A stretch of DNA of 64,000 nucleotides from Betaproteobacteria bacterium. Lineage in GTDB: Bacteria; Pseudomonadota; Gammaproteobacteria; Burkholderiales; JACQAP01. This document shows, in pieces, positions 2,693-15,965 of this stretch. A program made the position numbers and the translations under genes. Numbering within the stretch: position 1 is the first letter of the stretch; each line of letters starts with the position of its first letter. A model generated the notes under the pieces. It saw only the letters and a list, made by a program, of their open reading frames with translations, had not been told where the DNA came from and ran no database searches. The stretch lies in NCBI GenBank assembly GCA_016194905.1, contig JACQAP010000020.1, positions 1-64,000 on the forward strand, read 5' to 3'.

Positions 2693-2908
2693 TCAACCTT
2701 GCAGAATCCTGCGGTCGATCTCCGCGAGCGTCGGCCGTCCAAGCAGGGTCAGCGTAATGTCGATCTCGTCTCGCAGAATTTCGAGGGTACGTTCCACCCC
2801 CGGCTGGCCTCCCGATGCAAGGCCGTAAAGCCAGGCCCGGCCGATCATGCAGGCTTTCGCACCGAGCGCGCGGGCGCGCACGACGTCGGTACCACGGCGG
2901 ATGCCGCC
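2693..2908 (-). pseudogene. lldD 3'-terminal fragment (duplicate of the gene at 13.1 kb)
   Basis: The frame encodes only the last 70 or so residues of an FMN-dependent alpha-hydroxy-acid dehydrogenase, from GTDVVRARALGAKACMIGRA to IDRRILQG. The complete gene at 13126-14265 has the same residues, and 196 bp align with five mismatches. All catalytic residues and the N-terminal three quarters are missing, so it cannot work. The in-frame upstream part (to 3028) overlaps the 3' end of the Fe-S/FAD oxidoreductase and is not homologous to LldD. The last residues differ slightly from the full copy (RRILQG versus QRVLIEKP), so the donor may have been a close paralogue. Confidence 0.8.
2713..2908. repeat. 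Direct repeat, left copy (196 bp)
   Basis: This matches 13152-13347 base for base except for five substitutions (about 97%), in the same orientation, with a constant offset of 10,439 bp. Similarity stops abruptly at 2908/13347 and fades just left of 2713/13152. The pair brackets the complete cytochrome/porin cluster, so recombination between them could delete, circularise or amplify that block. Confidence 0.9.
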
Positions 2909-2949: not shown

Positions 2950-4245
2950 TCAGGCTTCGCCGTGGCGCGTCTCCACCATCACGCCGATGTCGCGGAGAAA
3001 TTGCGTCGGCATCAAACCGCCTGCACAAACGATAACGGCCTCGTTGCGCAAGGTGAACGAATTCTTTCCGTGCTTGAGTACGACCTGGTCGGGCTTGATT
3101 TCGACAACCTCGGATTCCAACAGAACGCGCACCCGACCATTCGATTCTGCCTCCTGCAGGCGGTCGCGACTACCCGGCTTGATGCGGTTGAATGCCCGGC
3201 CCCGATACGACAGGGATACGGTCGCGCCCGATTGTTGGGCAACTGATACCGCGGCTTCGATGGCGCTGTCTCCGCCGCCGACCACCAGCACATGCTGGCC
3301 GCGGTACTGCGCAGCGTCAATCAGGCGATAGACCACTTTCGGCTGTTCCTCACCCGGAACATCGAGCCGTCGCGGCGTGCCGCGCCGCCCGATGGCAAGC
3401 AGGATATTACGGGCGAGATAAGACCGCGAACTGGTCCTGACGAAGAAACCTCGATCCGCGCGTTCGACGGCTAGGACGCGTTCTCGGAAACTCACCTTCA
3501 AGCCGGCTTTTACTGTAATGCCTTTCCACAGGTCCAACAGCGACTCCTTGCTGACCTCTCCAAGTTTGATGCGACCGGCAGTCGGAACCTGCATTGGAGC
3601 AGTCATCGCGATTTTGTTGCGTGGATAATGATATACGGTGCCGCCGAGTGAAGATTCTTGCTCGAGTGTGACGAAACGCAGCTGCTTCTCTTTCGCGGCC
3701 AGCGATGCGGACAGGCCTGCGGGGCCTGCGCCTACGATCACCACATGGAGCATGTCCGGATCCGCCTGTCGCTCCGAAATTCTGCGAATCGCCTGTTTGC
3801 CTTGTTCGACCGCCTTGTGGATCAAACCCATTCCACCCAGTTCACCGGCGATGAATATGCCCGGAACATTAGTTTCGAAGTAAGGGTCCACCTGCGGGAT
3901 GTCGACGCCCCTGCGTTCGGTGCCGAATACAAGATTGATCGCGCCTGTCGGACAGGCCTTCAGACATGCCCCGTGTCCGATGCACGCGGAACCATTCACC
4001 AGTTGCGGAGAGCCATCGATCATCCCGATTGCTTTCTCCGGACAGGCAGATGCGCAAGCTCCGGAACCAATGCAGCGACCCGGATCGAAGACCGGATGCA
4101 GAGATGTCGGCTCGTCGAGTCCCGCCGTGACGGACACCACGTGGCGATGCAAGTCCTGCGTCTCTCTGCGCCTTCTTCGTTTGACGTAGATTGCGAAGAC
4201 AGCGATCAGCGGAAGCACATAGACGATTGCCGTTTCGAGATTCAT
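2950..4245 (-). CDS. Membrane-anchored Fe-S/FAD pyridine-nucleotide oxidoreductase
   Basis: The start is set at the ATG encoding MNLETAIVYVLPLIAVFAIY (an N-terminal membrane segment, residues 5-21). The longer in-frame extension to 4461 is low-complexity and basic. Domains: TM anchor followed by a basic stretch; a two-cluster ferredoxin-like region (residues 58-99, CIGSGACASACP and CIGHGACLKACP); then a two-dinucleotide-fold flavoprotein with the FAD motif VGAGPAGLSA (about 171-180), the NAD(P) motif VVGGGDSAIEAA and a C-terminal CAGGLMPTQF segment. In each Fe-S motif the usual second Cys is Ser or His, which I recall as common in this family. Likely role: electron exchange between NAD(P)H and the membrane/periplasmic cytochromes encoded divergently. 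The 3' end lies 41 bp from the lldD fragment. Confidence 0.85.
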   Translation of the reverse strand: MNLETAIVYVLPLIAVFAIYVKRRRRRETQDLHRHVVSVTAGLDEPTSLHPVFDPGRCIGSGACASACPEKAIGMIDGSPQLVNGSACIGHGACLKACPTGAINLVFGTERRGVDIPQVDPYFETNVPGIFIAGELGGMGLIHKAVEQGKQAIRRISERQADPDMLHVVIVGAGPAGLSASLAAKEKQLRFVTLEQESSLGGTVYHYPRNKIAMTAPMQVPTAGRIKLGEVSKESLLDLWKGITVKAGLKVSFRERVLAVERADRGFFVRTSSRSYLARNILLAIGRRGTPRRLDVPGEEQPKVVYRLIDAAQYRGQHVLVVGGGDSAIEAAVSVAQQSGATVSLSYRGRAFNRIKPGSRDRLQEAESNGRVRVLLESEVVEIKPDQVVLKHGKNSFTLRNEAVIVCAGGLMPTQFLRDIGVMVETRHGEA

Positions 4246-4455
4246 TGCGATTCGTTTGAAGTCGATCCCTGTTGATGTTGTTCGAAATCGTCTGCTGCTG
4301 ACGACAGTCCCCTCGAAGCGAGTTCGATAGTAGTTCCCTAGGATTTCTCCATCTAACAATTTGCGCCAACGATGTCGTGCGACAACGACAAGGGTGAGCG
4401 CGAATTCAATTCGTGTGACTGCAAGTCCATGCGAGGCCAACAGTAATGCCGCCGG

Positions 4456-4472
4456 TGGCATGCATATTGCAA
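4456..4472 (+). promoter_or_regulatory. Putative sigma-54 promoter ahead of the cytochrome b/27-heme operon
   Basis: The sequence TGGCAT-N5-TTGCA has GG at 4457-4458 and GC at 4469-4470 with exactly 10 bases between, the sigma-54 (-24/-12) geometry. Transcription would start near 4482, downstream of the ATG at 4477. That favours the ATG at 4522 as the true start of the cytochrome b gene. Confidence 0.55.
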
Positions 4473-4521
4473 AACTATGCAGGCAAGTCCCCGATCAAGT
4501 TCCTTCACTTTCGACAACTCC

Positions 4522-5358
4522 ATGACCCAGGTCGTTTCAGTTCGCTCTGCAGTTCAATCAAAACCCGTGCCACGACGCATGCCGTTCCTGCTCGCGCTGC
4601 TCGTAATTGCGGCCGTTGCACTGTTCGGATGGCATGCCATGAGCCAGCCCGGTTACTCAAGTGGATCACGTACCGGATACAACATCGGCCTTGCCGGGGC
4701 CGTCTTGATGCTGATCCTGTTCCTCTACCCCCTGCGCAAGCACGTCCGCTGGTTGAATGCTGCGGGACCGCTGCGCGAGTGGTTGAACCTGCACATGCTA
4801 CTCGGCATTTGCGGCCCGCTTCTCATCCTGTTTCATTCCCGCTTTCACATCGATTCGACGAATGCCGCGGTCGCGATGACAAGCATGCTGGTCGTGGCCG
4901 GGAGCGGCATCGCGGGCCGGTTCATTTACACGCGCATTCATCACGAACTGCGCGGCCGGAAGCTTGCGGCGATCGAACTGCGCGCGGCACTGGCGGAATC
5001 GCTGGCTCGCATAGAAGGGGGCAAGACGTTGCCGGCGTCGGCCAGGCGCATATTGGAATCTTACGAGGCTTATGCCGAACGCGTTCCCGGCAGCCTAATC
5101 GCCCGGGCGCTCAAGTTTCTGTTTATTGGCTGGCGAAGGCTGTGGACCACCAGGCGGATTCGCCATCAGTTAAGCGGATACCCAGGAGGGCGACGCATCA
5201 CAATTCAACTAGAGAATTATCTTCAGGGCTTGCAACGCGTCGCGCAGTTCTCGATCTACGAACGACTGTTCTCGCTCTGGCATCTGCTTCACATTCCGCT
5301 GGTAGCCTTGCTCGTACTGAGCGCTGTCTTTCACGTGCTCGCTGTTCACATGTACTGA
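4522..5358 (+). CDS. Di-heme membrane cytochrome b
   Basis: A 278-residue integral membrane protein with hydrophobic segments at about 20-38, 53-70, 91-108, 116-134 and 255-275. Two His pairs spaced by 13 residues, H91/H105 and H257/H271, are the classic bis-His ligation of two stacked b hemes; extra His residues at 109, 254 and 276 lie near the membrane faces. The region between the third/fourth and last helices (about 140-245) is a basic, charged cytoplasmic domain. It would link the quinone pool or the divergent Fe-S/FAD protein to periplasmic c-type cytochromes. The ATG at 4477 is an alternative start, but the sigma-54-like site just before it argues for 4522. The stop codon directly abuts the start of the 27-heme gene. 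Confidence 0.82.
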   Translation: MTQVVSVRSAVQSKPVPRRMPFLLALLVIAAVALFGWHAMSQPGYSSGSRTGYNIGLAGAVLMLILFLYPLRKHVRWLNAAGPLREWLNLHMLLGICGPLLILFHSRFHIDSTNAAVAMTSMLVVAGSGIAGRFIYTRIHHELRGRKLAAIELRAALAESLARIEGGKTLPASARRILESYEAYAERVPGSLIARALKFLFIGWRRLWTTRRIRHQLSGYPGGRRITIQLENYLQGLQRVAQFSIYERLFSLWHLLHIPLVALLVLSAVFHVLAVHMY

Positions 5359-7311
5359 ATGACGCGCAGCCTGCTGCGGGGTCTCGGAGCCCTGCTACTG
5401 GTCGCCATCGCCCTGAATCCGCGATCGGCCCGCCCGGATACGGTCGAGACGCTGGTGATGCCCGGAAAGGTGATAGAGGGGCACGCCGACATCGAGGGGC
5501 AGTGCCGTAAATGCCACCAGCCATTCAAGAAGGAAGGGCAGAACGCGCTGTGTCTGGACTGCCACAAGGCGGTGGCGCAGGACGTCGCGTCGAAATCCGG
5601 CTATCACGGCAGAATTTCCGAAAAACCTTGCAGGGAATGTCATGCCGAGCACCTGGGCAGACCGGCGAAGATCGTGAAGCTGGACGAAGGGCGATTTGAT
5701 CATCGGCAGACCGACTTCCTGTTGCTGGGCAAACATACTGCGGTGAAGTGCGTTTCCTGTCACCCCTCGGCACGCAAGTTCCGGGAAGCCGAACACGAGT
5801 GCGTATCCTGTCATCGCAAGGATGACGTTCACCACGGCACGGTTGGCGCGGGCTGCGAGCGTTGTCACACCGAAACGGATTGGAAGAAGGCGAAGTTCGA
5901 CCATGACAAGACGCATTTCCCACTGAGGGGCAGGCACGCCCAGCCCAAGTGCACGGCGTGCCACCGAACCCAGAACTTCAGGGAGACGCCGAACGAATGC
6001 GTCGGCTGCCATCGCCGGGACGACGTCCACAAGGGAAAGCTGGGCGCCAATTGTGCCGAATGCCACAACGATCGCGGATGGAAAAAGACCGCCTTCGACC
6101 ACGAAAAGACGCACTTCCCGCTGTCAGGCAAACACGGTGCGGTCAAGTGTGCGGACTGCCATCGCGATCAGAGTTTCAAAGAGACGCCCCGCGAATGCGT
6201 GGCGTGCCACAGGAAGGACGATATCCACAAGGGCTCATTGGGAGCGGATTGCGACAGGTGCCATAACGATCGGGACTGGAAGAATACTGCGTTCGATCAC
6301 GGGAAAACGAAGTTCCCGTTGCTAGGCGCGCACGGCACGACCCGCTGCCTGGCCTGCCATAGGAGCCAGGCCTTCCAAGACGGTCCGCCGTCGCAGTGCG
6401 TAGCCTGCCATCGCAAGAATGATGTCCACAAAGGCCGGTTCGGGGAGAGGTGCGAAACCTGCCATGGCGAAACGGCCTGGAAGACGCTGAAATTCGATCA
6501 TGATCGAGACACGAATTTCCGCCTGCGTGAGTCGCATTCAAGAGTCAAGTGTGATAGCTGTCATTCTGGAATGCTGTACGCCGACAAGGCTCCCAAGGAC
6601 TGCAACGGCTGCCATGCAAAAAGTGATGTGCATCGCGGAAGCCTCGGTACGCAATGCGAGTCCTGTCACAACGAATCGAAATGGAAGACCTCGTCGTTCG
6701 CTCATGATCGCGACACGCGATATCCCCTCCGCGGCCGTCACGCTTCGATTACATGCAAAGCCTGTCACCTGGACGGTACATTTCGGCAGAAGCTTGCCAT
6801 GCAGTGCATCGCCTGCCACCGCAAGGATGACCGCCATGCCGGCCAGGAAGGAAGCGAATGCGAGCGTTGCCATGCCGAGACGTCGTGGAAGACGACGAAC
6901 TTCGACCATGGCCGTGCGAATTTTCCGCTGACCGGCAGGCATTTGTCGGTTAAATGCGAGGCCTGCCACGCCAGTCCGAAGTTCAAGGATGCGCGCAGGG
7001 AATGCTTGGCATGCCATGCCAGGCAGGATGTACACAAGCGCAGGCTGGGTGCGGATTGTGCCTCTTGCCACAATGCGCGCGATTGGCGCATCTGGGATTT
7101 CGATCACGACAAGCGGACTCACTTCGTTCTCGATGGCGCTCATCGCAAACTGGATTGCGTGACATGCCATGTACACCCCGGCGACACGATACCTGCCGTG
7201 GGCGTGCGTTGTGTGGATTGCCACGAGCGTGACGACGTTCACCGTGAGGCCTTCGGCAACCGCTGCGAGCGCTGCCATGCGACCTCGAGCTTCAAAGAGA
7301 TCCGGCATTAA
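5359..7311 (+). CDS. 27-heme c-type cytochrome, triheme-repeat type
   Basis: A 650-residue exported protein with an N-terminal signal (hydrophobic residues 6-20, SARPD region). I count 27 CxxCH heme-binding motifs. After three N-terminal hemes, the other 24 fall into about eight 66-residue repeats. Each repeat follows the pattern CxxCHRKDDVHKG, CxxCHN..WK, FDHDKTHFPL.GRH, CxxCH; the extra conserved His residues probably supply distal heme ligands. Heme density is one per 24 residues, typical of nanowire-like electron conduits. There is no lipobox or membrane segment after the signal, so it is soluble periplasmic or exported. It starts one base after the cytochrome b stop, implying co-translation. 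No exact named orthologue is claimed. Confidence 0.92.
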   Translation: MTRSLLRGLGALLLVAIALNPRSARPDTVETLVMPGKVIEGHADIEGQCRKCHQPFKKEGQNALCLDCHKAVAQDVASKSGYHGRISEKPCRECHAEHLGRPAKIVKLDEGRFDHRQTDFLLLGKHTAVKCVSCHPSARKFREAEHECVSCHRKDDVHHGTVGAGCERCHTETDWKKAKFDHDKTHFPLRGRHAQPKCTACHRTQNFRETPNECVGCHRRDDVHKGKLGANCAECHNDRGWKKTAFDHEKTHFPLSGKHGAVKCADCHRDQSFKETPRECVACHRKDDIHKGSLGADCDRCHNDRDWKNTAFDHGKTKFPLLGAHGTTRCLACHRSQAFQDGPPSQCVACHRKNDVHKGRFGERCETCHGETAWKTLKFDHDRDTNFRLRESHSRVKCDSCHSGMLYADKAPKDCNGCHAKSDVHRGSLGTQCESCHNESKWKTSSFAHDRDTRYPLRGRHASITCKACHLDGTFRQKLAMQCIACHRKDDRHAGQEGSECERCHAETSWKTTNFDHGRANFPLTGRHLSVKCEACHASPKFKDARRECLACHARQDVHKRRLGADCASCHNARDWRIWDFDHDKRTHFVLDGAHRKLDCVTCHVHPGDTIPAVGVRCVDCHERDDVHREAFGNRCERCHATSSFKEIRH

Positions 7312-7528
7312 GTGGCCGGAGAACGGTCGCTCCTCCAGATTGTGTTCGGGACGATGATCGGGGTGAACGAAGCTGTTCGACGAGAACCGGACCCTGAATA
7401 TTTTCATTTCTGCTTGTCTCCCTCCGGCGACGCATATCAAAGCATTTCGTGCGGATCACGACGGTGTACGAAGCAAGAAAAAGAAAAATATTAGATATGA
7501 CAGCGGGTTGAGAGAAGAGTTGGGTGTT

Positions 7529-7544
7529 TGGCACAACCATTGCG
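7529..7544 (+). promoter_or_regulatory. Putative sigma-54 promoter of the 17-heme cytochrome gene
   Basis: TGGCAC-N5-TTGC is a full match to the sigma-54 core, with GG at 7530-7531 and GC at 7542-7543 (10-base spacing). It lies about 50 bp before the TTG start at 7594 in a 282-bp intergenic stretch that otherwise holds only an A-rich segment (7478-7494) and no gene. An enhancer-binding protein would be needed; its site was not identified. Confidence 0.6.
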
Positions 7545-7593
7545 GTGTTGATCCACACGGACATCCCACCTTTCGCAGGTGCGCTGAAAAAAT

Positions 7594-9009
7594 TTGAATA
7601 TTGAGAATCAACCTCATGTGAATCGGACTGCCGTCGAACTCTGTGCGCACTCCGTTGCCGGACCGCTGGCCGCCAGAATGCGGGCCGTCAGCATCGCGTT
7701 TCTGTGTGTCTTGGGGATGATGCTGTTCATTACCATCACTGGGGCGATTGCGGCGCAGAAGACACCTAAGAAGGAAGTGCGCTTCGACCATATCAAGACC
7801 GGCTTCAATCTGACCGGCGCCCACTTGCGGGCTCGCTGCGACTCCTGCCACGTCAACGGAGTCTTCCGAGGTACACCGACCCAGTGTGCCGTCTGCCATG
7901 CGGCCGGGAACCGGTTTTCGGCGAAAGCCAAACCGCAGAATCACATTCCCACCAACGCGGGTTGCGACACGTGCCACAACACGACGGCATGGATTCCCTC
8001 GCAGTTCCGACACCAGGGTGTAGCGGCCGGCACCTGTCGCACGTGCCACAACGGGACAATGGCAAACGGACAGACACCAAGCCACATCCAGACGACTGCG
8101 TCATGCGACACCTGCCACACCACAATTTCATGGCGAGCGACGGCATTCAACCATCAGGGAGTGGCGCCCGGCACTTGTTCGACTTGTCACAACGGCGGCA
8201 GGGCGACCGGCAAGCCGGGCAACCATCTTGCGACTACCGCGTCCTGCGATACGTGCCACCGCACTACGGGATGGGTGCCCGCGAATTTCAGTCACGCAAG
8301 TGTGGCGGCAGGAACCTGTGCGACCTGCCACAACGGTTCGACCGCAACGGGTAAACCGGCGAAACATATTCCGACCACTGCATCGTGCGATACCTGCCAT
8401 CGAACCACGGCGTGGACACCGGCGACGTTCAGTCACGCCGGCATTTCGCCCGGCACCTGCGCGACGTGCCACAACGGCACCTCGGCAACCGGCAAACCGG
8501 CTACCCATATCGTGACCACCGCATCCTGCGACACGTGTCACCGGACGACGGCCTGGACACCCGCCACTTTCAGCCACAGCGGCGTTGCAGCCGGGACCTG
8601 CGCAACCTGTCACAACGGGACGTCAGCCACGGGCAAACCGGCAAATCATGTTCTCACCACGCAATCCTGCGATGCGTGTCACAAGACGACGGCCTGGACA
8701 CCCGCGACATTCAGCCATACCGGCATCGCCGCCGGCACTTGCAGCACTTGCCACAACGGTACCACCGCAAAAGGAATATCCGCCAATCACATACCGGTGG
8801 CACAAACCTTCGCCGGCGGAGTGTCTTGCGATCTTTGCCACCGGTCGACGACGACGTTTGCGTCGGCCACGATGAGCCACACAGGCGTCGTTCCCGGTTC
8901 GTGCGCGACCTGCCACAACGGCGTCCTCGCCAAGGGAAAGCCCAGGGATCATCCATCCACCACCAAGGCCTGCGACGCCTGCCACAGCACGAGGACCTTC
9001 AGCAAGTAG
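7594..9009 (+). CDS. 17-heme c-type cytochrome, diheme tandem-repeat type
   Basis: An exported protein with 17 CxxCH motifs. A hydrophobic signal lies at residues 30-54 of the 471-residue frame (AFLCVLGMMLFITITGAIAA). The frame starts at TTG 7594; the ATG at 7678 would place the signal at the N-terminus and is the likelier start. The body is built from 47-residue diheme units: CDTCHRTTAW.PATFSH, then GTCATCHNGT, then ATGKPA.HI.TTAS. The FSH histidine is a probable distal ligand. Ser/Thr/Gly-rich linkers and few charges contrast with the 27-heme protein, suggesting a different location (possibly surface-exposed). A close sigma-54-like promoter suggests its own transcription. Porin and CcmI genes follow on the same strand. 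Confidence 0.9.
   Translation: MNIENQPHVNRTAVELCAHSVAGPLAARMRAVSIAFLCVLGMMLFITITGAIAAQKTPKKEVRFDHIKTGFNLTGAHLRARCDSCHVNGVFRGTPTQCAVCHAAGNRFSAKAKPQNHIPTNAGCDTCHNTTAWIPSQFRHQGVAAGTCRTCHNGTMANGQTPSHIQTTASCDTCHTTISWRATAFNHQGVAPGTCSTCHNGGRATGKPGNHLATTASCDTCHRTTGWVPANFSHASVAAGTCATCHNGSTATGKPAKHIPTTASCDTCHRTTAWTPATFSHAGISPGTCATCHNGTSATGKPATHIVTTASCDTCHRTTAWTPATFSHSGVAAGTCATCHNGTSATGKPANHVLTTQSCDACHKTTAWTPATFSHTGIAAGTCSTCHNGTTAKGISANHIPVAQTFAGGVSCDLCHRSTTTFASATMSHTGVVPGSCATCHNGVLAKGKPRDHPSTTKACDACHSTRTFSK
7963..8808 (+). repeat. Six 141-bp tandem repeats inside the 17-heme gene
   Basis: The first base of successive CDTCH/CDACH codons falls at 7963, 8104, 8245, 8386, 8527 and 8668, exactly 141 bp apart. 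The next is at 8827 (159 bp, a six-codon insertion), then 8971. Units are similar at DNA as well as protein level, most clearly 8386-8667, so heme number could change by unit gain or loss. Confidence 0.85.
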
Positions 9010-9147
9010 CCGTATTGAGCCGGGCCGCATTGCGACGGCGATTCCGGAGATTGCAGACCAGACTTGGCCGCCGGAAAACGCGGACGGGTTTCCTGCGATC
9101 CGGAATATGTGCGCAGGCCAGCAGAAGAACAACACCAATTGCGAACT

Positions 9148-11748
9148 ATGAATTCTCCCGTTCACAGCGTTTCTGCTTTTCGAACGGCACTGTTTCGGAT
9201 TCCAGCCGTTTTTCTGGCAGTACTGCTTGCGCTTTATTCTCTGGCGACGCGAGCCGAATACCTCGACGACGTGGATGTCGACGCCAGTGGAAAGAATGTA
9301 CTCATCCGGGTCCGCTTCAACACCAGTTTCCAGTACCTGCGTCACGTTCCGGAGACGCAGGGCGATGTCCTGCAGATCTTCCTGCGACAGCAATCCGGCG
9401 ACGTGCCTCCGCCGGTGGCCGAGGAAACGAAATCGGTTGCCGCCACCGACCTGACGCCGAAAGTCATTGTGACCTACCCGCTGCAAAATGGCGCGCCCAC
9501 CAAACGGCTTCTGGTGAAGTTCGACAAAACCGTCCAGTTCCGGGTGCGGCAGGGTGTCGATCCCCACAGTATCGAAATTGTGATGCAGCCGGTCGTTGTC
9601 ACCAAACCCAGGAAGTCCACCGCGCCGCCGAAATATGCGATCTTTCTCGATACCCATGCGTCAGCCGACGAGGCGAAGGGCGCTCCGTTGCCGCCCGAAC
9701 TCTCCCGCTATGAAACGATTCTCTCGAAATCCGAGATTGCAGACGTGGAGCTCTACGACCGCAATGTCGGTTACTTCGACACCGCGGAAGCCGCCGACGT
9801 GATCCGGGAGCGGATACTCCCGAAATTCCCCAACGCCAGGGTCGTGGATACGTCCACCGGGACGAAGGTCGTCGGGGCCGAGCCGCGACCTGCAGCAGCG
9901 CCGGTGCCGCGAGCGAAGCAACAACCTCCCGTGGCGACGGCACCGGCGCTGCCGATACCGAAAACCCCGAACGTGGAACCGACCCCGGCTCCCGTTTCCG
10001 GCGCTCCGGAGGCGGCAGCGGTGCCGGCGCTCGCAGTCCCGAAGTCTCCCGAGCCGGCGTCCGTGGCGGAAAAGGGGGCACAGGCTGTCGCGTCGGCGGC
10101 AGCGCCCGACGTTGAGCGCCGGGCTCGTGAAGCGATGGAAACGGCGCGCAACGCTTTCGCGGGGAACAAATGGGACGAAGCGATCAATGCGCTGAATCAG
10201 TTGCTGATCCTGCCGCCCAACAGTCTGTCGCAACAAGCTCAGGAAATGGTGGGTCTGGCCCGGGAACGCAGCGGCCAGTTAGGCAAGGCAAAGGCGGAGT
10301 ACGAACTTTACCTCAAGCTCTATCCGGACGCCGAAGGCGCGAAACGGGTAAGGGAGAGGCTCGCATTGCTGGAACAGCGGTTCGCCAGCATGCCTGCCGG
10401 TGCGCGACTCGCGTCGGAACCGGTCGAATCGCGTGCGCCGGTCAAGACGGTTTTCGGCAGCTTCGCGCAGTACTACTACGACGGATCGACAAAATCCGAA
10501 ACCGCATTCAATACTCCCACGACTGTCGACCAGGCGACGCTTTCCAGTCGCGATCTGTCGGCGATTGTGACGACGGCCGACGCAAACGCCCGATACCGGT
10601 CGGAGCGGTCCGATATCCGGCTCGTGTTCCGCGATACCGATACCAAGAGCCTGATCGACAAGAATCCCAGCAGGAACCGGCTGGATGCGGCCTATGTCGA
10701 CTACCGCGGGCTGCAGGACCCGTATTCGTTGCGCCTTGGCAGACAGATTGGAACGAGCGGCGGAATTCTTGGGCGCTTCGACGGAGCAATTGCCGGATAC
10801 AAATTTACGAAAAACTGGCGCATCAATATGGAAGTTGGCGCACCCGTCGATTACGGCCTGGATTCGAAACGCTATTTCTACGGATTGAGCCTGGACGCGG
10901 AAAACATCCTCGAAAACTGGAGCGGGAATGTTTACGGAATCAGGCAAATGGTCGATGGCATTCCCGATCGCGAAGCGGCAGGCGGCGAGATCCGCTATTT
11001 CAAGAATGGCAATTCCCTGTATTCGATGGTGGACTACGATACGTTGTTCAAGAAGGTGAACATCGCCACGATCCAGGGAAGCGTGCAGACCAGGGGGCAG
11101 ACGACTTTTACGGTCCTGCTCGACCAACGCAAGGCGCCGCCGCTTTCGACGACGAACGCGGTGTTCGGCCAGCCTGTGTCTTCGGTCGAGGCGTTGCTCC
11201 GCACCAACACGGAGGACCAGTTGCACCAGAAGGCGCTTGCGATCACCGCAGATGTGAAGCAGGTCCTCGCGAGCGTTACCACGCCGGTGAGCGCCGCCTG
11301 GCAACTGGGCGCCGACTACCGTCTGACGAACGTGGGCCCGCTCCCGGCCTACAACGACATTCCGGCGACGCCAGGTACCGGCAACATCAATAGCTATACG
11401 TTGCAGGCGATCGGAAGCAACCTGTACTCCAGCCGGGACATCAACGTGTTCAGCGGCAGTTGGCTCAAGAGCCCGCTGTTCCATGGCGAGTACTTGTCCT
11501 ACAGCAACCTCACCGGATTCGGCCCGAAGTGGGCGCTGGAGCCTTCGTTGCGCTGGTACACGCAGCGCGACAGTACCGAGACGAAAACCGACAGATATAC
11601 CGCCGTTCTGCGGCTCACTTACGCCTGGAAGGAGAACATCTCCTTCGATGGCGAGTACGACGTGGAACGAAGCATCACGGAGAGTCCGATCCAACGGGAG
11701 AATGCGGTGCATCAGTTCTTTTATCTCGGCTATCGTTACTCGTTCTGA
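9148..11748 (+). CDS. Outer-membrane beta-barrel with TPR repeats (porin of the cytochrome cluster)
   Basis: The start is set at the ATG (MNSPVHSVSAF) that opens a clear signal peptide (residues about 12-36, ending ATRA-EYL); the 28-residue upstream extension is not signal-like. Mature order: an N-terminal all-beta region resembling an AMIN-type domain (about 38-165); a SPOR-like region; a Pro/Ala-rich linker (about 245-320); one or two TPR repeats (about 325-410); then a barrel of roughly 430 residues with alternating aromatic strands. It ends in GYRYSF, the C-terminal aromatic typical of BAM-assembled barrels. By context it would house or contact a multiheme cytochrome to carry electrons across the outer membrane. 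The opposite-strand 531-codon frame is a shadow. Confidence 0.85.
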   Translation: MNSPVHSVSAFRTALFRIPAVFLAVLLALYSLATRAEYLDDVDVDASGKNVLIRVRFNTSFQYLRHVPETQGDVLQIFLRQQSGDVPPPVAEETKSVAATDLTPKVIVTYPLQNGAPTKRLLVKFDKTVQFRVRQGVDPHSIEIVMQPVVVTKPRKSTAPPKYAIFLDTHASADEAKGAPLPPELSRYETILSKSEIADVELYDRNVGYFDTAEAADVIRERILPKFPNARVVDTSTGTKVVGAEPRPAAAPVPRAKQQPPVATAPALPIPKTPNVEPTPAPVSGAPEAAAVPALAVPKSPEPASVAEKGAQAVASAAAPDVERRAREAMETARNAFAGNKWDEAINALNQLLILPPNSLSQQAQEMVGLARERSGQLGKAKAEYELYLKLYPDAEGAKRVRERLALLEQRFASMPAGARLASEPVESRAPVKTVFGSFAQYYYDGSTKSETAFNTPTTVDQATLSSRDLSAIVTTADANARYRSERSDIRLVFRDTDTKSLIDKNPSRNRLDAAYVDYRGLQDPYSLRLGRQIGTSGGILGRFDGAIAGYKFTKNWRINMEVGAPVDYGLDSKRYFYGLSLDAENILENWSGNVYGIRQMVDGIPDREAAGGEIRYFKNGNSLYSMVDYDTLFKKVNIATIQGSVQTRGQTTFTVLLDQRKAPPLSTTNAVFGQPVSSVEALLRTNTEDQLHQKALAITADVKQVLASVTTPVSAAWQLGADYRLTNVGPLPAYNDIPATPGTGNINSYTLQAIGSNLYSSRDINVFSGSWLKSPLFHGEYLSYSNLTGFGPKWALEPSLRWYTQRDSTETKTDRYTAVLRLTYAWKENISFDGEYDVERSITESPIQRENAVHQFFYLGYRYSF

Positions 11749-11842
11749 GGCTGCGCATGCAAATTCGACAATTCGGGACCCGACCTCCAAGCGTGGAAAC
11801 GACAATCCCCGTTGCGGCCCGGCTTCGACAACAGGGGCGCCG

Positions 11843-13093
11843 ATGACTGGTTTCCTGATCGCGGCATGCGCCATGCTGTGCGCGGCGCTTGGATTCCTGC
11901 TACCGCCATTGCTGAGGCGCCCGTGGCATGAACATGCCTCGGTGGAAAATGCAACCCATGATCTGGTCGAGCTCTATAGGCAGCAGGTGACAGAAGTCGA
12001 AGGCGATTTGTCTTCGGGATTGTTGGCCGCGGGGCACCATCAGGAAGCCAGACGGGAACTCGAACGCAGAATGCTGGAGGACTTGTCGCAAGGAGCGCCG
12101 ATGCAGGCGACACAGTGGCGGATGGCGCTAAAAACGGCCCTGGGAATGCTGGTGCTATTGCCTCTTGCGGCGGCACTGCTTTACGGTCAACTCGGAAATC
12201 CCGGTGCGATGTCGGCGCCACCGGCCGGGTCGTCGGCCATGCAAGCCGGGCCGCATGCCACCTCTCCTGCGCAGATTGCGATGATGGTCGACCAACTGGC
12301 GCAGAAACTGGCCGACGATCCGGATAACCCGGACGGTTGGGCCATGTTGGCGCGGTCCTACGACGTACTGGGCCGATACCGAGACGCAGTTGCCGCGTTC
12401 AAGAGAGCAGAGGCGCTGCTGCCTGACGATGCTGCGTTGCTGGCCGACTACGCTGATACGGTGGCGATGACACAGCGGGGTCGTCTGAGGGGGAAACCGA
12501 TGCAGCTGGTGCATCGCGCGCTCAAGGTAGATCCGGACAATCCCAAGGCATTGGCGCTTGCTGGAACCGATGCTTTCGACCGTCGCGACTACCGGGGCGC
12601 GGCAACATTCTGGGAAAAGGCGCTGAAGGCCGCGCCCGAGGGTACGGAGTTCACGGCGGGATTGCGCGCCAACCTCGAGGAAGCGAGATCTCTTGCCGGT
12701 GATCGGTCGCGTCCGGCAATGGCAACGCCTGAATCGACTCAAGCGGTCGCTGCGCAAATATCGGGGCGCGTCACTCTGTCGACTTGGCTGAGAGAGAAGG
12801 CTCCGCCTGACGGCACGTTGTTCGTATTCGCCCGCGCGGAAAGCGGACCGCGCATGCCCCTGGCGATACTGCAGGCGAACGTGAAGGCCTTGCCGATGGA
12901 ATTCATCCTGGACGACAAGTCCTCGATGTCGCCCACGCTGAAACTTTCCAACTTCGACCGGGTCATCGTCTCGGCGCGCATCTCCAGGTCGGGTGACGCG
13001 TTGCCGAGGTCAGGCGACCTGATCGGAAGCAGCGGTCCGGTTCCAGTGGGAACGCGAAACCTGCAAATAGAAATCGGCGAAACCGTCAAATAA
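11843..13093 (+). CDS. ccmI: CcmI/CycH-like cytochrome c maturation protein
   Basis: A 416-residue inner-membrane protein. Residues 1-22 are hydrophobic; the segment ELYRQQVTEVEGDLSSGLL...RRELERRMLEDL is the characteristic CcmI N-terminal domain. A second TM lies at about 96-112, then TPR repeats (about 145-280), then a C-terminal periplasmic beta domain (about 305-416). CcmI presents apocytochrome to the heme ligation complex. The start at 11843 is chosen because the in-frame upstream part is antisense-like porin sequence. No other ccm gene is nearby, so this copy probably serves the 44 heme sites encoded just upstream. It converges on lldD with a 32-bp gap. Confidence 0.85.
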   Translation: MTGFLIAACAMLCAALGFLLPPLLRRPWHEHASVENATHDLVELYRQQVTEVEGDLSSGLLAAGHHQEARRELERRMLEDLSQGAPMQATQWRMALKTALGMLVLLPLAAALLYGQLGNPGAMSAPPAGSSAMQAGPHATSPAQIAMMVDQLAQKLADDPDNPDGWAMLARSYDVLGRYRDAVAAFKRAEALLPDDAALLADYADTVAMTQRGRLRGKPMQLVHRALKVDPDNPKALALAGTDAFDRRDYRGAATFWEKALKAAPEGTEFTAGLRANLEEARSLAGDRSRPAMATPESTQAVAAQISGRVTLSTWLREKAPPDGTLFVFARAESGPRMPLAILQANVKALPMEFILDDKSSMSPTLKLSNFDRVIVSARISRSGDALPRSGDLIGSSGPVPVGTRNLQIEIGETVK

Positions 13094-13125: not shown

Positions 13126-14265
13126 TTACGGTTTTTCGATGAGGACGCGCTGGTCGATCTCCGCGAGCGTCGGCCGTCCAAGCAGGGTCAGCGTAATGTC
13201 GATCTCGTCTCGCAGAATTTCGAGGGCACGTTCCACCCCCGGCTGACCTCCCGATGCAAGGCCGTAAAGCCAGGCCCGGCCGATCATGCAGGCTTTCGCA
13301 CCGAGCGCACGTGCGCGCACGACGTCGGCACCACGGCGGATGCCGCCGTCGAGGACCACTTCCAGTTTGTCGCCCACGGCCTCCGCGATTTCGGGCAGGG
13401 CTTGAACGGCGGACATCGCGCCTTCGAGCTGTCGTCCACCATGGTTCGAAACGATTACGCCGTCGGCACCGTGGCCCGCCGCAAGCTTTGCATCCTCAGC
13501 GGTCAGGATGCCCTTCAACAGTACCGGCCCGCCCCAGACCGATTTGAACCACTCGACGTCGCGCCAGCTCACACTCAGATCGTACTGTCCGGCGATGAAT
13601 TGGGTGATGGTGATCGCATCGGCGGATGCCACCTTGGTACCGACGAAGTTCTTGAAAGTGATGCGTGGCCCGAGCGCTACGTCGAACAGCCAGGAATAGT
13701 GACGGGCGAAATCCAGAATTGTGGCGGCGGAGAAGCGGGGCGGCACGGTGAAGCCGTTACGCATGTCACGTTCGCGTGGACCTTGCACTTTCGTATCCAC
13801 AGTGAGCACCAGCGCCGTGCAGCGTGAAGCCCGTGCCCTCTCAATGAAATCCTTGGTCAACTCCCGGTCGCGCAATACATAGAGCTGGAACCATTTTGGC
13901 GGCGCCGTCTCGCTGGTGATTTCCTCGATGGTGCAGGTGGACATCGTGGAAAGGCAATACGGCACGCCGTACTTTTCCGCAGCGCGGGCAGCCGCCAGTT
14001 CTCCGCGGCGAGACAGCAAGCCCGCCAAACCGGTCGGAGCGAGGATGAGCGGCGACGCGCATCGCTGCCCGAACAGCGTAATCGACTGGTCGCGCGTGGA
14101 GACATCGGTCAATGTGCGGGTGCGAAATCGCCATTTCTGGAAATCCTCTCGATTGGCCCGGAGCGTGGTTTCGTCCTGGGCACCGCCGTCGATGAATTCG
14201 AAAATGGCGCGTGGCAGCCGGCGCTTGGCCGCCGCGCGAAGGTCGTCGATATTGATGGCTTGCAT
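13126..14265 (-). CDS. lldD: FMN-dependent alpha-hydroxy-acid (L-lactate) dehydrogenase
   Basis: A 379-residue TIM-barrel flavoenzyme of the lactate dehydrogenase/glycolate oxidase family. It oxidises an L-2-hydroxy acid and passes electrons to quinone or oxygen. Seen: N-terminal INIDDLRAAAKRRLPRAIFEFIDGGAQDE, the phosphate/FMN segments LVLTVDTKVQGPRERD and GVIVSNHGGRQLEGA (catalytic His and Arg), and LDGGIRRGADVVRARALGA. Length is normal. The start is the ATG of MQAINIDDL at 14265; the in-frame extension to 14373 is not family-like. The 3' 196 bp are duplicated at 2713-2908. Exact substrate (lactate, glycolate or mandelate) is not decided. Confidence 0.88.
   Translation of the reverse strand: MQAINIDDLRAAAKRRLPRAIFEFIDGGAQDETTLRANREDFQKWRFRTRTLTDVSTRDQSITLFGQRCASPLILAPTGLAGLLSRRGELAAARAAEKYGVPYCLSTMSTCTIEEITSETAPPKWFQLYVLRDRELTKDFIERARASRCTALVLTVDTKVQGPRERDMRNGFTVPPRFSAATILDFARHYSWLFDVALGPRITFKNFVGTKVASADAITITQFIAGQYDLSVSWRDVEWFKSVWGGPVLLKGILTAEDAKLAAGHGADGVIVSNHGGRQLEGAMSAVQALPEIAEAVGDKLEVVLDGGIRRGADVVRARALGAKACMIGRAWLYGLASGGQPGVERALEILRDEIDITLTLLGRPTLAEIDQRVLIEKP
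13152..13347. repeat. Direct repeat, right copy (196 bp, within lldD)
   Basis: Partner of 2713-2908 in the same orientation, five mismatches in 196 bp. This copy lies in the intact lldD and is presumably the source or target of the recombination that placed the cytochrome cluster here. Confidence 0.9.
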
Positions 14266-14388
14266 GGATACGGTTATTTTTATTGAAGAGGGCGTGAAAT
14301 AGTTCCAGTTGTTTATTTTACGGGATGTCAACAGCCGTGATTTCAGTGGCGGACCGGAATGCTGCGCCGGCATGAATCTCGTTCTGCC

Positions 14389-15855
14389 TCAGGGACGAAC
14401 GGGATTGTCTCCCCAGTAGATCGGCGTCGGATATTTTCGCGGCTTGTGCAGGTCTTCGAGGTAAAGCGACGGCGCCATTTCCCAGGCATATTCGTTGAAG
14501 CGAATCAGCATCTCCTGCACGCGCTGGGGTTCGCGTTCGGCATGATTGTCTTCTTCCGAAGGATCGTCCTGGACATTGTAAAGCTCGTAGCGTACCGGCA
14601 AACGCGAATAGACGATCAGCTTCCAGTCGTCCATCATCAGGGCGCCGCGAAAATCCTCCATGCTTAACAACAAATCCTTGCGCGGACTGAGCTTGGCGCC
14701 CGTCATCGTCGCCCATTGGTCGATTCCATCGAGGGGTTTGGGTTGCTCGAGCCTGGCGCCGGCAATGCCAAGCAGTGTCGGGTACATGTCGGTGACGTGA
14801 ATGCGCTCCGTAACGACGCCGGCTGGGATTTTCCCCGGCCATGAAGCGATCGCGACAACGCGAAGCGACCCTTCATACAGGCTTCCCTTGCCATCGCGAT
14901 AAGGGCCGTTATCGGAAACTTCCCGTTGCACGTCACCGTCGCCGGTGGGATATTTGTTCGGCACCGCCCCGCCGTTGTCGCTGTGAAAGACGATCAGCGT
15001 GTCGGCCGTCATGGCCTTTTTCTCGAGTGCGGCCATGACCATGCCGATTGCATCGTCCAGCGCCGTCACCATGGCCGCGTAGATCCGGCGCTGCTCGTCG
15101 CGCACTTCCCTATACAGATCCAGATATTCCTTCGTTGCCTGCAAGGGCGCTTGAGGCGCATGGAAGGACAGATACAGGAACAGTGGCTTGGCGGTATCGT
15201 GCTTCTCGATGATCTGCGCGGCTTCTTTGCCGATCAGCGCGGTGCAGTAACCCTCTTCCCTGACGGACCGCTCGTTTCGATGCCAGTCGGGTTCGTAGGC
15301 CTGGTTGGTCTTGCGGAAACAGTCGATGTCGCCATTGAAGCTGCCGTAAAAGCTGTCAAAGCCGCGTTGCGTCGGCCAGTAGTCTTTCTTGTAGTGACCC
15401 AGTTGCCACTTGCCAAGCAAGGCAGTGCGATAGCCTGCCTCTTTCAACGCTTCCGGCAGCAGGCGCTCGCCGGTTGGCAGTCCGTACTGGCTCCATGGAA
15501 GAATCGACAGGGTTTGTAAACCATAGCGCATCGGGTAACGCCCGGTGAGCAATGCCGCGCGCGCCGACGTGGAATACGGCTGTGTGTAGAACCTCTCCAG
15601 GCGCACGCCCCTTTGCGCGAGTCGGTCCAGATTGGGCGTCCTGATCGCGCCGCCGTGAAATCCCACATCCTTCCAGCCAAGGTCGTCGGCCAGGATGTAA
15701 ACGATATTGGGATGCTCCGCGGCGCCAGCGCATGCCACGGAGCATCCCAGGGCTACCGTGCAGACTAGGGCCACGGTGCAGACCAAGGCCACGGTGCAGA
15801 CCAAGGCCACGGTGCAGTCCAGTAACCACGCCGCGAGTCGCAAGGCGACTCCCAT
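14389..15855 (-). CDS. Exported sulfatase-family protein with variant nucleophile motif
   Basis: A 488-residue alkaline-phosphatase-superfamily sulfatase. The start at 15855 is backed by a GGAGG Shine-Dalgarno 6 bases upstream. The signal peptide carries four near-identical six-residue blocks (CTVALV/G). Metal ligands are visible in YILADDLG (about 53-60) and FHSDNGG. The activation motif, normally Cys/Ser-x-Pro-x-Arg followed by LLTGR, reads S95-T-S-A-R99 before AALLTGRYP. The nucleophile position is therefore Ser and the usual Pro is Ser, so formylglycine formation is uncertain. It probably hydrolyses sulfate esters in the periplasm, or is inactive or a phosphoesterase. No maturase gene is nearby. 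It is divergent from the MoxR operon. Confidence 0.82.
   Translation of the reverse strand: MGVALRLAAWLLDCTVALVCTVALVCTVALVCTVALGCSVACAGAAEHPNIVYILADDLGWKDVGFHGGAIRTPNLDRLAQRGVRLERFYTQPYSTSARAALLTGRYPMRYGLQTLSILPWSQYGLPTGERLLPEALKEAGYRTALLGKWQLGHYKKDYWPTQRGFDSFYGSFNGDIDCFRKTNQAYEPDWHRNERSVREEGYCTALIGKEAAQIIEKHDTAKPLFLYLSFHAPQAPLQATKEYLDLYREVRDEQRRIYAAMVTALDDAIGMVMAALEKKAMTADTLIVFHSDNGGAVPNKYPTGDGDVQREVSDNGPYRDGKGSLYEGSLRVVAIASWPGKIPAGVVTERIHVTDMYPTLLGIAGARLEQPKPLDGIDQWATMTGAKLSPRKDLLLSMEDFRGALMMDDWKLIVYSRLPVRYELYNVQDDPSEEDNHAEREPQRVQEMLIRFNEYAWEMAPSLYLEDLHKPRKYPTPIYWGDNPVRP
15750..15821. repeat. 18-bp tandem repeat, four copies, in the sulfatase signal peptide
   Basis: Four consecutive 18-bp units (15750-15767, 15768-15785, 15786-15803, 15804-15821). 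The middle two differ by one base and the outer ones by a few. Each encodes six residues of the signal-peptide hydrophobic core, so copy-number change keeps the frame but changes core length. Confidence 0.88.
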
Positions 15856-15965
15856 AAAAATCCTCCGTCGGATCAGCCGGATGTTACATGAGAATGCAAC
15901 GCCGACGACCTGCCGGTGTGCCTTTTCGCATGGGCATTCGGTGCTGCGATACAATCGGCCGAGTC

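Follow-up and report, generated by a model that had tools for sequence, protein, structure and literature searches.

The window analysed here, a stretch of DNA of 64 kb in its whole length, comes from a draft assembly of 36 contigs. The 44 heme sites announced in the original prediction were recovered as CXXCH motifs in two adjacent open reading frames (ORFs) of the forward strand, 27 in the first (5359-7311) and 17 in the second (7594-9009). Over the whole window, 45 CXXCH-type DNA matches were observed against 4.3 expected from shuffles, a number that no shuffle of the window reached. The other proteins named in that prediction were likewise found (Table 1): the ORF 2950-4461 of the reverse strand carries the Pfam domains Fer4 and Pyr_redox_3, as proposed for an Fe-S/FAD oxidoreductase; a protein of 293 aa has five hydrophobic helices and two WX3HX13H motifs, in agreement with the suggested di-heme cytochrome b; the supposed outer-membrane barrel with TPR repeats matches Pfam TPR and shows 22 strands in its AlphaFold model; and the last ORF contains CcmI domains by Pfam.

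Table 1. Features of the multiheme cytochrome cluster and its borders (positions in the window).
Feature	Position	Strand	Basis or remark
Second copy (196 bp, 97% identical) of the 3' part of the FMN dehydrogenase gene (13152-13347)	2713..2908	-	bounds the cluster
Membrane-anchored Fe-S/FAD oxidoreductase (flavoprotein)	2950..4245	-	N-terminal TM helix, Fe-S motifs, reductase-like domain
Intergenic region separating the divergent genes for flavoprotein and IMP	4246..4476	.	gaps in homologous loci mostly 100-350 bp
PCC3-type inner-membrane protein (IMP), predicted di-heme cytochrome b	4477..5358	+	5 TM, motifs
27-heme multiheme cytochrome, periplasmic type	5359..7311	+	CXXCH count, 3-heme repeat, signal sequence
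17-heme cytochrome, PCC3 extracellular type	7678..9009	+	CXXCH count, 2-heme repeat, signal sequence
Outer-membrane protein, TPR and C-terminal barrel	9148..11748	+	Pfam TPR, AlphaFold model
CcmI (CycH) paralog within the cluster	11843..13093	+	Pfam CcmI domains
FMN-dependent alpha-hydroxyacid dehydrogenase, full gene, flank, outside the conduit	13126..14373	-	

The cluster is bounded by a direct repeat of 196 bp (2713-2908 and 13152-13347, 97% identical, copies 10.4 kb apart), which occurs in the source genome in these two copies only. Recombination between the repeats could lead to loss or amplification of the cluster. Of four members of the genus that were sampled, two carry the cluster. 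Its surroundings differ between them, since the genes outside the cluster in the initial 40 kb of the window had no match in about 30 kb around the cluster of the other carrier. Beyond the cluster, the signal region of a sulfatase-type gene (14389-15954, reverse strand) contains TVALVC as a short tandem repeat.

By He et al. 2017 (PMC5566968), PCC3 was named as a set of a porin, a repeat-rich extracellular cytochrome, a periplasmic cytochrome and an IMP, the latter of about 300 aa with five TM helices, of which TM4 carries SGXXG, and TM3 and TM5 carry WX3HX13H each. The helices and motifs of this IMP were all found in the protein examined here: its helices span residues 37-55, 68-86, 103-125, 132-150 and 270-288, the two WX3HX13H motifs are formed by W102-H120 (TM3) and W268-H286 (TM5), and SGIAG lies at residue 143 on TM4. 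The four histidines are placed for two b hemes, by which the protein is predicted to be a di-heme cytochrome b. The IMP profile match begins at 4519; there was no Pfam or NCBIfam match, and no relative among solved structures. The 27-heme protein corresponds to the periplasmic-type multiheme cytochrome (MHC) of PCC3 (about 21-27 hemes, few residues per heme), the 17-heme protein to the second repeat-rich MHC of extracellular type, and the barrel predicted next to them to the outer-membrane porin. Since the IMP motifs, the two MHCs and the barrel porin all fit, the resemblance to PCC3 originally proposed was correct. The claim of an undescribed system found no support for the cluster as a whole: bioinformatic descriptions of PCC3 date back to 2017, and periplasmic members with 27 hemes and extracellular members with 17 are tabulated in PMC10734462. 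What the locus adds is the flavoprotein, which the original prediction listed without giving it special weight.

Both cytochromes consist of ORFs with cytochrome c7/c3 repeats according to Pfam, carry an N-terminal signal sequence and have no lipobox on inspection of their sequences. The 27-heme protein (650 aa, 24.1 aa per heme) is built from a unit of three hemes in about 66 aa, with a heme spacing of 16-18-32 residues, and the 17-heme protein (27.7 aa per heme; ORF of 471 aa, likely start at 7678) from a unit of two hemes in 47 aa, with a spacing of 24-23. The search among solved structures returned no match for the former and weak matches only for the latter, one of them being MtrC; an outer location of the 17-heme cytochrome, which would be reached without a lipobox, is suggested by analogy. 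Among 67 full-length homologous periplasmic subunits, 65 carry 18, 21, 24 or 27 hemes, from which the periplasmic PCC3 subunit appears to evolve in three-heme steps. The heme number of the surface-type cytochrome spans about 10 to 75 in the GTDB loci. For Gallionellaceae, PMC10734462 gives 21, 24 or 27 hemes for the PCC3 periplasmic subunit and 15 or 17 hemes for one extracellular cluster, so that 27 plus 17 hemes fall inside the known PCC3 range.

The AlphaFold model of the barrel protein (mean pLDDT 82, alignment of 27 sequences) places the 22 strands in residues 433-866, preceded by two small beta domains (AMIN-like/SPOR-like), a linker and TPR helices; SPOR was matched by a few of its homologs. 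The best 50 Foldseek matches listed are generic porins, ushers and FadL-type barrels with low TM-score, and MtrB is not among them. The CcmI of the cluster is a second copy, another ccmI being located in the ccm operon on contig 21. Elsewhere, four loci, which are PCC3 loci or flavoprotein ends (L095, L102 from Rhodoferax lacus IMCC26218, L164 and L166), have ccm genes of their own (CcmC, CcmF, CcmG-like, CcmI), which suggests dedicated cytochrome maturation there.

Translation of the flavoprotein probably starts near 4245 rather than at the ORF end at 4461, since its homologs begin there. The protein has a TM helix followed by two ferredoxin-type motifs, CIGSGACX3CP (CX5CX3CP) and CIGHGACX3CP, and in both of them the second cysteine is missing. 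At this position the first motif has mostly Ser or Ala and sometimes Cys in the homologs. The second motif has histidine there (residue 163 of the ORF, or 91 when counted from a start at 4245) in every one of 79 GTDB homologs that were parsed, a sample partly chosen by that motif, as the 80 GTDB loci had been found with the search pattern CIGHGAC; the histidine is nonetheless no product of the pattern, because all 18 loci found without it have the residue as well. In 7-Fe ferredoxins a missing second cysteine gives a [3Fe-4S] cluster, and on this likeness at least the second cluster of the flavoprotein may be [3Fe-4S] or His-ligated.

The remainder of the protein adopts in the model (mean pLDDT 83) the YpdA/thioredoxin-reductase/FNR fold, with the glycine-rich sites for FAD and NAD(P)H present and a CXXC disulfide centre absent from the sequence. 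Comparison of the model with YpdA gave VIA Z 20.9 and an rmsd of 15.1 over 261 residues, which would mean that the two domains are oriented differently towards each other, and the score for the YpdA/Bdr equivalog TIGR04018 was 157 bits, below its cut-off of 340. The model stops where YpdA, thioredoxin reductase and FNR enzymes continue for about 50 residues, and the matching FAD segment (TNVPGIFIAGELGGMGL) sits N-terminal to the first GXGXXG. Used as a separate query, this segment matched residues 306-345 of dihydrolipoyl dehydrogenase (E 0.0009) and residues 239-286 of thioredoxin reductase (E 0.0045). The missing C-terminal residues together with the FAD segment ahead of the first GXGXXG point to a circular permutation of the thioredoxin-reductase-like domain.

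Conservation of the barrel and the cytochromes together, on which the original prediction depended, was observed in the neighbourhood check: the set recurs in Betaproteobacteria and beyond, being present in 15 annotated neighbourhoods from this order and in most of the 80 GTDB loci. Strong matches to the IMP (E < 1e-29) and to the flavoprotein (E < 1e-150) fell in an identical set of 16 genomes in the order sample of 300, and in an identical set of 6 in the phylum sample of 398 (raw counts, kinship ignored); three of the six are shared with the 16, so that 19 distinct genomes carry both. No genome of either sample (300 and 398) had a strong match to one of the two alone, and the flavoprotein lies within the PCC3 cluster in every carrier genome of both. 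An unlinked arrangement of the two genes in G340 and G638 was rejected, as both contigs end inside the cluster. In the source genome, the search for flavoprotein homologs gave one match. The PCC3 text passages of the open-access literature give four genes, and its figures or supplements may show a fifth; the Fe-S/FAD protein as a constant companion of PCC3 goes beyond the text of the PCC3 literature available.

The gene order bears on what the flavoprotein does. Of the 76 GTDB loci with more than 1.1 kb of upstream sequence, 57 have the IMP gene next to the flavoprotein gene in divergent orientation; in most of the remainder the flavoprotein gene stands last at the 3' end, behind the barrel gene or a ccm block (CcmC, CcmF, CcmI). 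The flavoprotein could accordingly be a maturation factor outside the electron path, which supplies reductant for the attachment of the many hemes, and both its position directly after ccmI, at the end of the ccm block, in several Burkholderiales-type PCC3 loci and the cluster's own ccmI in the window would agree with this. We consider such a role unlikely, however, since the ordinary ccm operon of the source genome has no flavoprotein homolog, the flavoprotein adjoins the IMP in most loci and has no CXXC disulfide centre, and in a PCC4-type locus (L050) the genes for an IMP-like protein and a flavoprotein lie side by side, and ccmI is found neither between them nor next to them. We put the probability that the locus is a PCC3-type conduit in which the flavoprotein is a working component at roughly 75%. 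The cluster might instead store electrons in the periplasm or act there as a redox buffer, its barrel serving another purpose; the very high heme density is in line with this, and a capacitor role was suggested in PMC10734462, but the barrel, the surface-type cytochrome and the IMP are retained together across many genomes, which makes a mere store highly improbable.

Gene content, motifs, conservation and co-occurrence are observed; for the localisation, cofactor occupancy, contacts and electron flow of the conduit parts we infer the following scheme. The membrane-anchored Fe-S flavoprotein would exchange electrons with NAD(P)H (or quinol) on the cytoplasmic side, and its Fe-S centres would relay them, in either direction, between it and the di-heme b IMP, which may contact quinone as well. 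The 27-heme cytochrome could act as a wire spanning the periplasm, the 22-strand barrel would take it, or the base of the 17-heme protein, through the outer membrane, beyond which the 17-heme repeat protein would extend; the cluster's own CcmI may aid attachment of the many hemes.

Regarding direction alone, we give outward electron transfer about an even chance. It is mildly favoured because an NAD(P)H flavoprotein feeding the b hemes would be downhill outward, while the path from Fe(II) to NAD+ would be uphill and against the membrane potential; because RuBisCO, MtrB/PioB and MtoAB-type genes are absent from the source genome; and because PCC3 transcripts fall on Fe(II) in Sideroxydans lithotrophicus ES-1, where both PCC3 clusters were down-regulated according to PMC8788666. 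Slit_1448, the surface cytochrome of the second cluster of ES-1, was undetected in the proteome table of PMC12016527. For the conduit reading as a whole, both ES-1 observations count as evidence against. Alternatively, electrons could flow inward: the surface cytochrome would oxidise Fe(II), Mn(II) or a mineral, the IMP would deliver electrons to quinone, and the flavoprotein would make NAD(P)H from reduced b hemes or quinol, or form a side branch. He et al. 2017 propose transfer to the quinone pool (PMC5566968), PCC3 is frequent among iron oxidisers (PMC10734462), and the source genome has a gene for a Cyc2-like fused cytochrome-porin (L139:1354-2787 on G000 contig 36, beginning AVPSFARQTGMACQACH), found by a DNA pattern; the latter also makes iron oxidation by another route possible. 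On the other hand, the same missing genes (RuBisCO and MtrB/PioB) leave the source genome no obvious autotrophic iron oxidiser, the response of ES-1 to Fe(II) runs the opposite way, and a dedicated NAD(P)H-type flavoprotein would be hard to run backwards from Fe(II), so we hold inward flow for possible and rather doubtful. PCC3 is described as functionally unverified in PMC12442390, and the open-access PCC3 literature available contains no demonstration of its electron-transfer activity.

A more specific form of the conduit reading is put forward tentatively, at somewhat less than even odds: PCC3 would be a five-component, NAD(P)H-linked conduit in which an obligate, permuted Fe-S flavoprotein with His in place of one Cys feeds the di-heme b protein. 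If true, it would give a direct path from cytoplasm to surface that need not pass the quinone pool. As a candidate conduit, PCC3 is widespread among metal-cycling bacteria of fresh water, and the flavoprotein may be usable as an additional marker where its cytochromes are too repetitive to annotate. As NAD(P)H oxidation is directly assayable, the IMP serving as acceptor, the flavoprotein also offers a purifiable handle on the direction, substrate and inner-membrane entry of PCC3.

Among known systems, MtrCAB, MtoAB and PioAB have in common with this locus a barrel and multiheme cytochromes crossing the outer membrane, as predicted here. Membership in this group was rejected, as there is no MtrB/PioB barrel (PF11854, no match in the whole source genome) and no decaheme MtrA/DmsE-type cytochrome. 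Neither cytochrome scored above the DmsE/MtrA or OmcA/MtrC cut-offs (TIGR03508 gave 71.9 bits for the 17-heme protein, cut-off 192). The flavoprotein shares its FAD and NAD(P)H domains with YpdA/Bdr, thioredoxin reductase and FNR, but differs from them in the apparently permuted C-terminal FAD segment, the lack of CXXC, the fused Fe-S motifs and the TM anchor.

PCC4 (He et al. 2017) has, as here, an IMP with two WX3HX13H motifs and an Fe-S flavoprotein. Its cytochromes, however, have 4, 5 and 10 hemes and it has no surface cytochrome, and membership was rejected because only 27- and 17-heme genes are present in our locus. The PCC4-type locus L050 encodes 10-, 4- and 5-heme cytochromes and an IMP-like protein with both motifs, with the flavoprotein gene adjoining. 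The PCC4 flavoprotein, about 780-800 aa (781 aa in L050), has an unpermuted reductase domain, cNMP-binding domains and the Fe-S motif CX2CX2CX3CP. PCC4 clusters support the pairing of IMP and Fe-S flavoprotein as a recurrent one. Three other loci (L141, L142, L145) combine a PCC3/PCC4-like IMP and an Fe-S flavoprotein of 800 aa with three cytochromes, one of them tetraheme, one with 10 hemes and FHA-like at its N-terminus, and one long (about 1250 aa) and likewise with 10 hemes; they are possibly a further conduit type.

With the PCC3 clusters of S. lithotrophicus ES-1 (Slit_0867-0870 and Slit_1446-1449; He et al. 2017), our locus shares the IMP motifs, the periplasmic MHC of three-heme steps, the repeat-rich MHC and the large porin. 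It differs from published PCC3 in that the loci collected here often include CcmI or additional ccm genes, and in that the Fe-S/FAD protein joins the four published genes as a fifth, both here and in all homologs examined.
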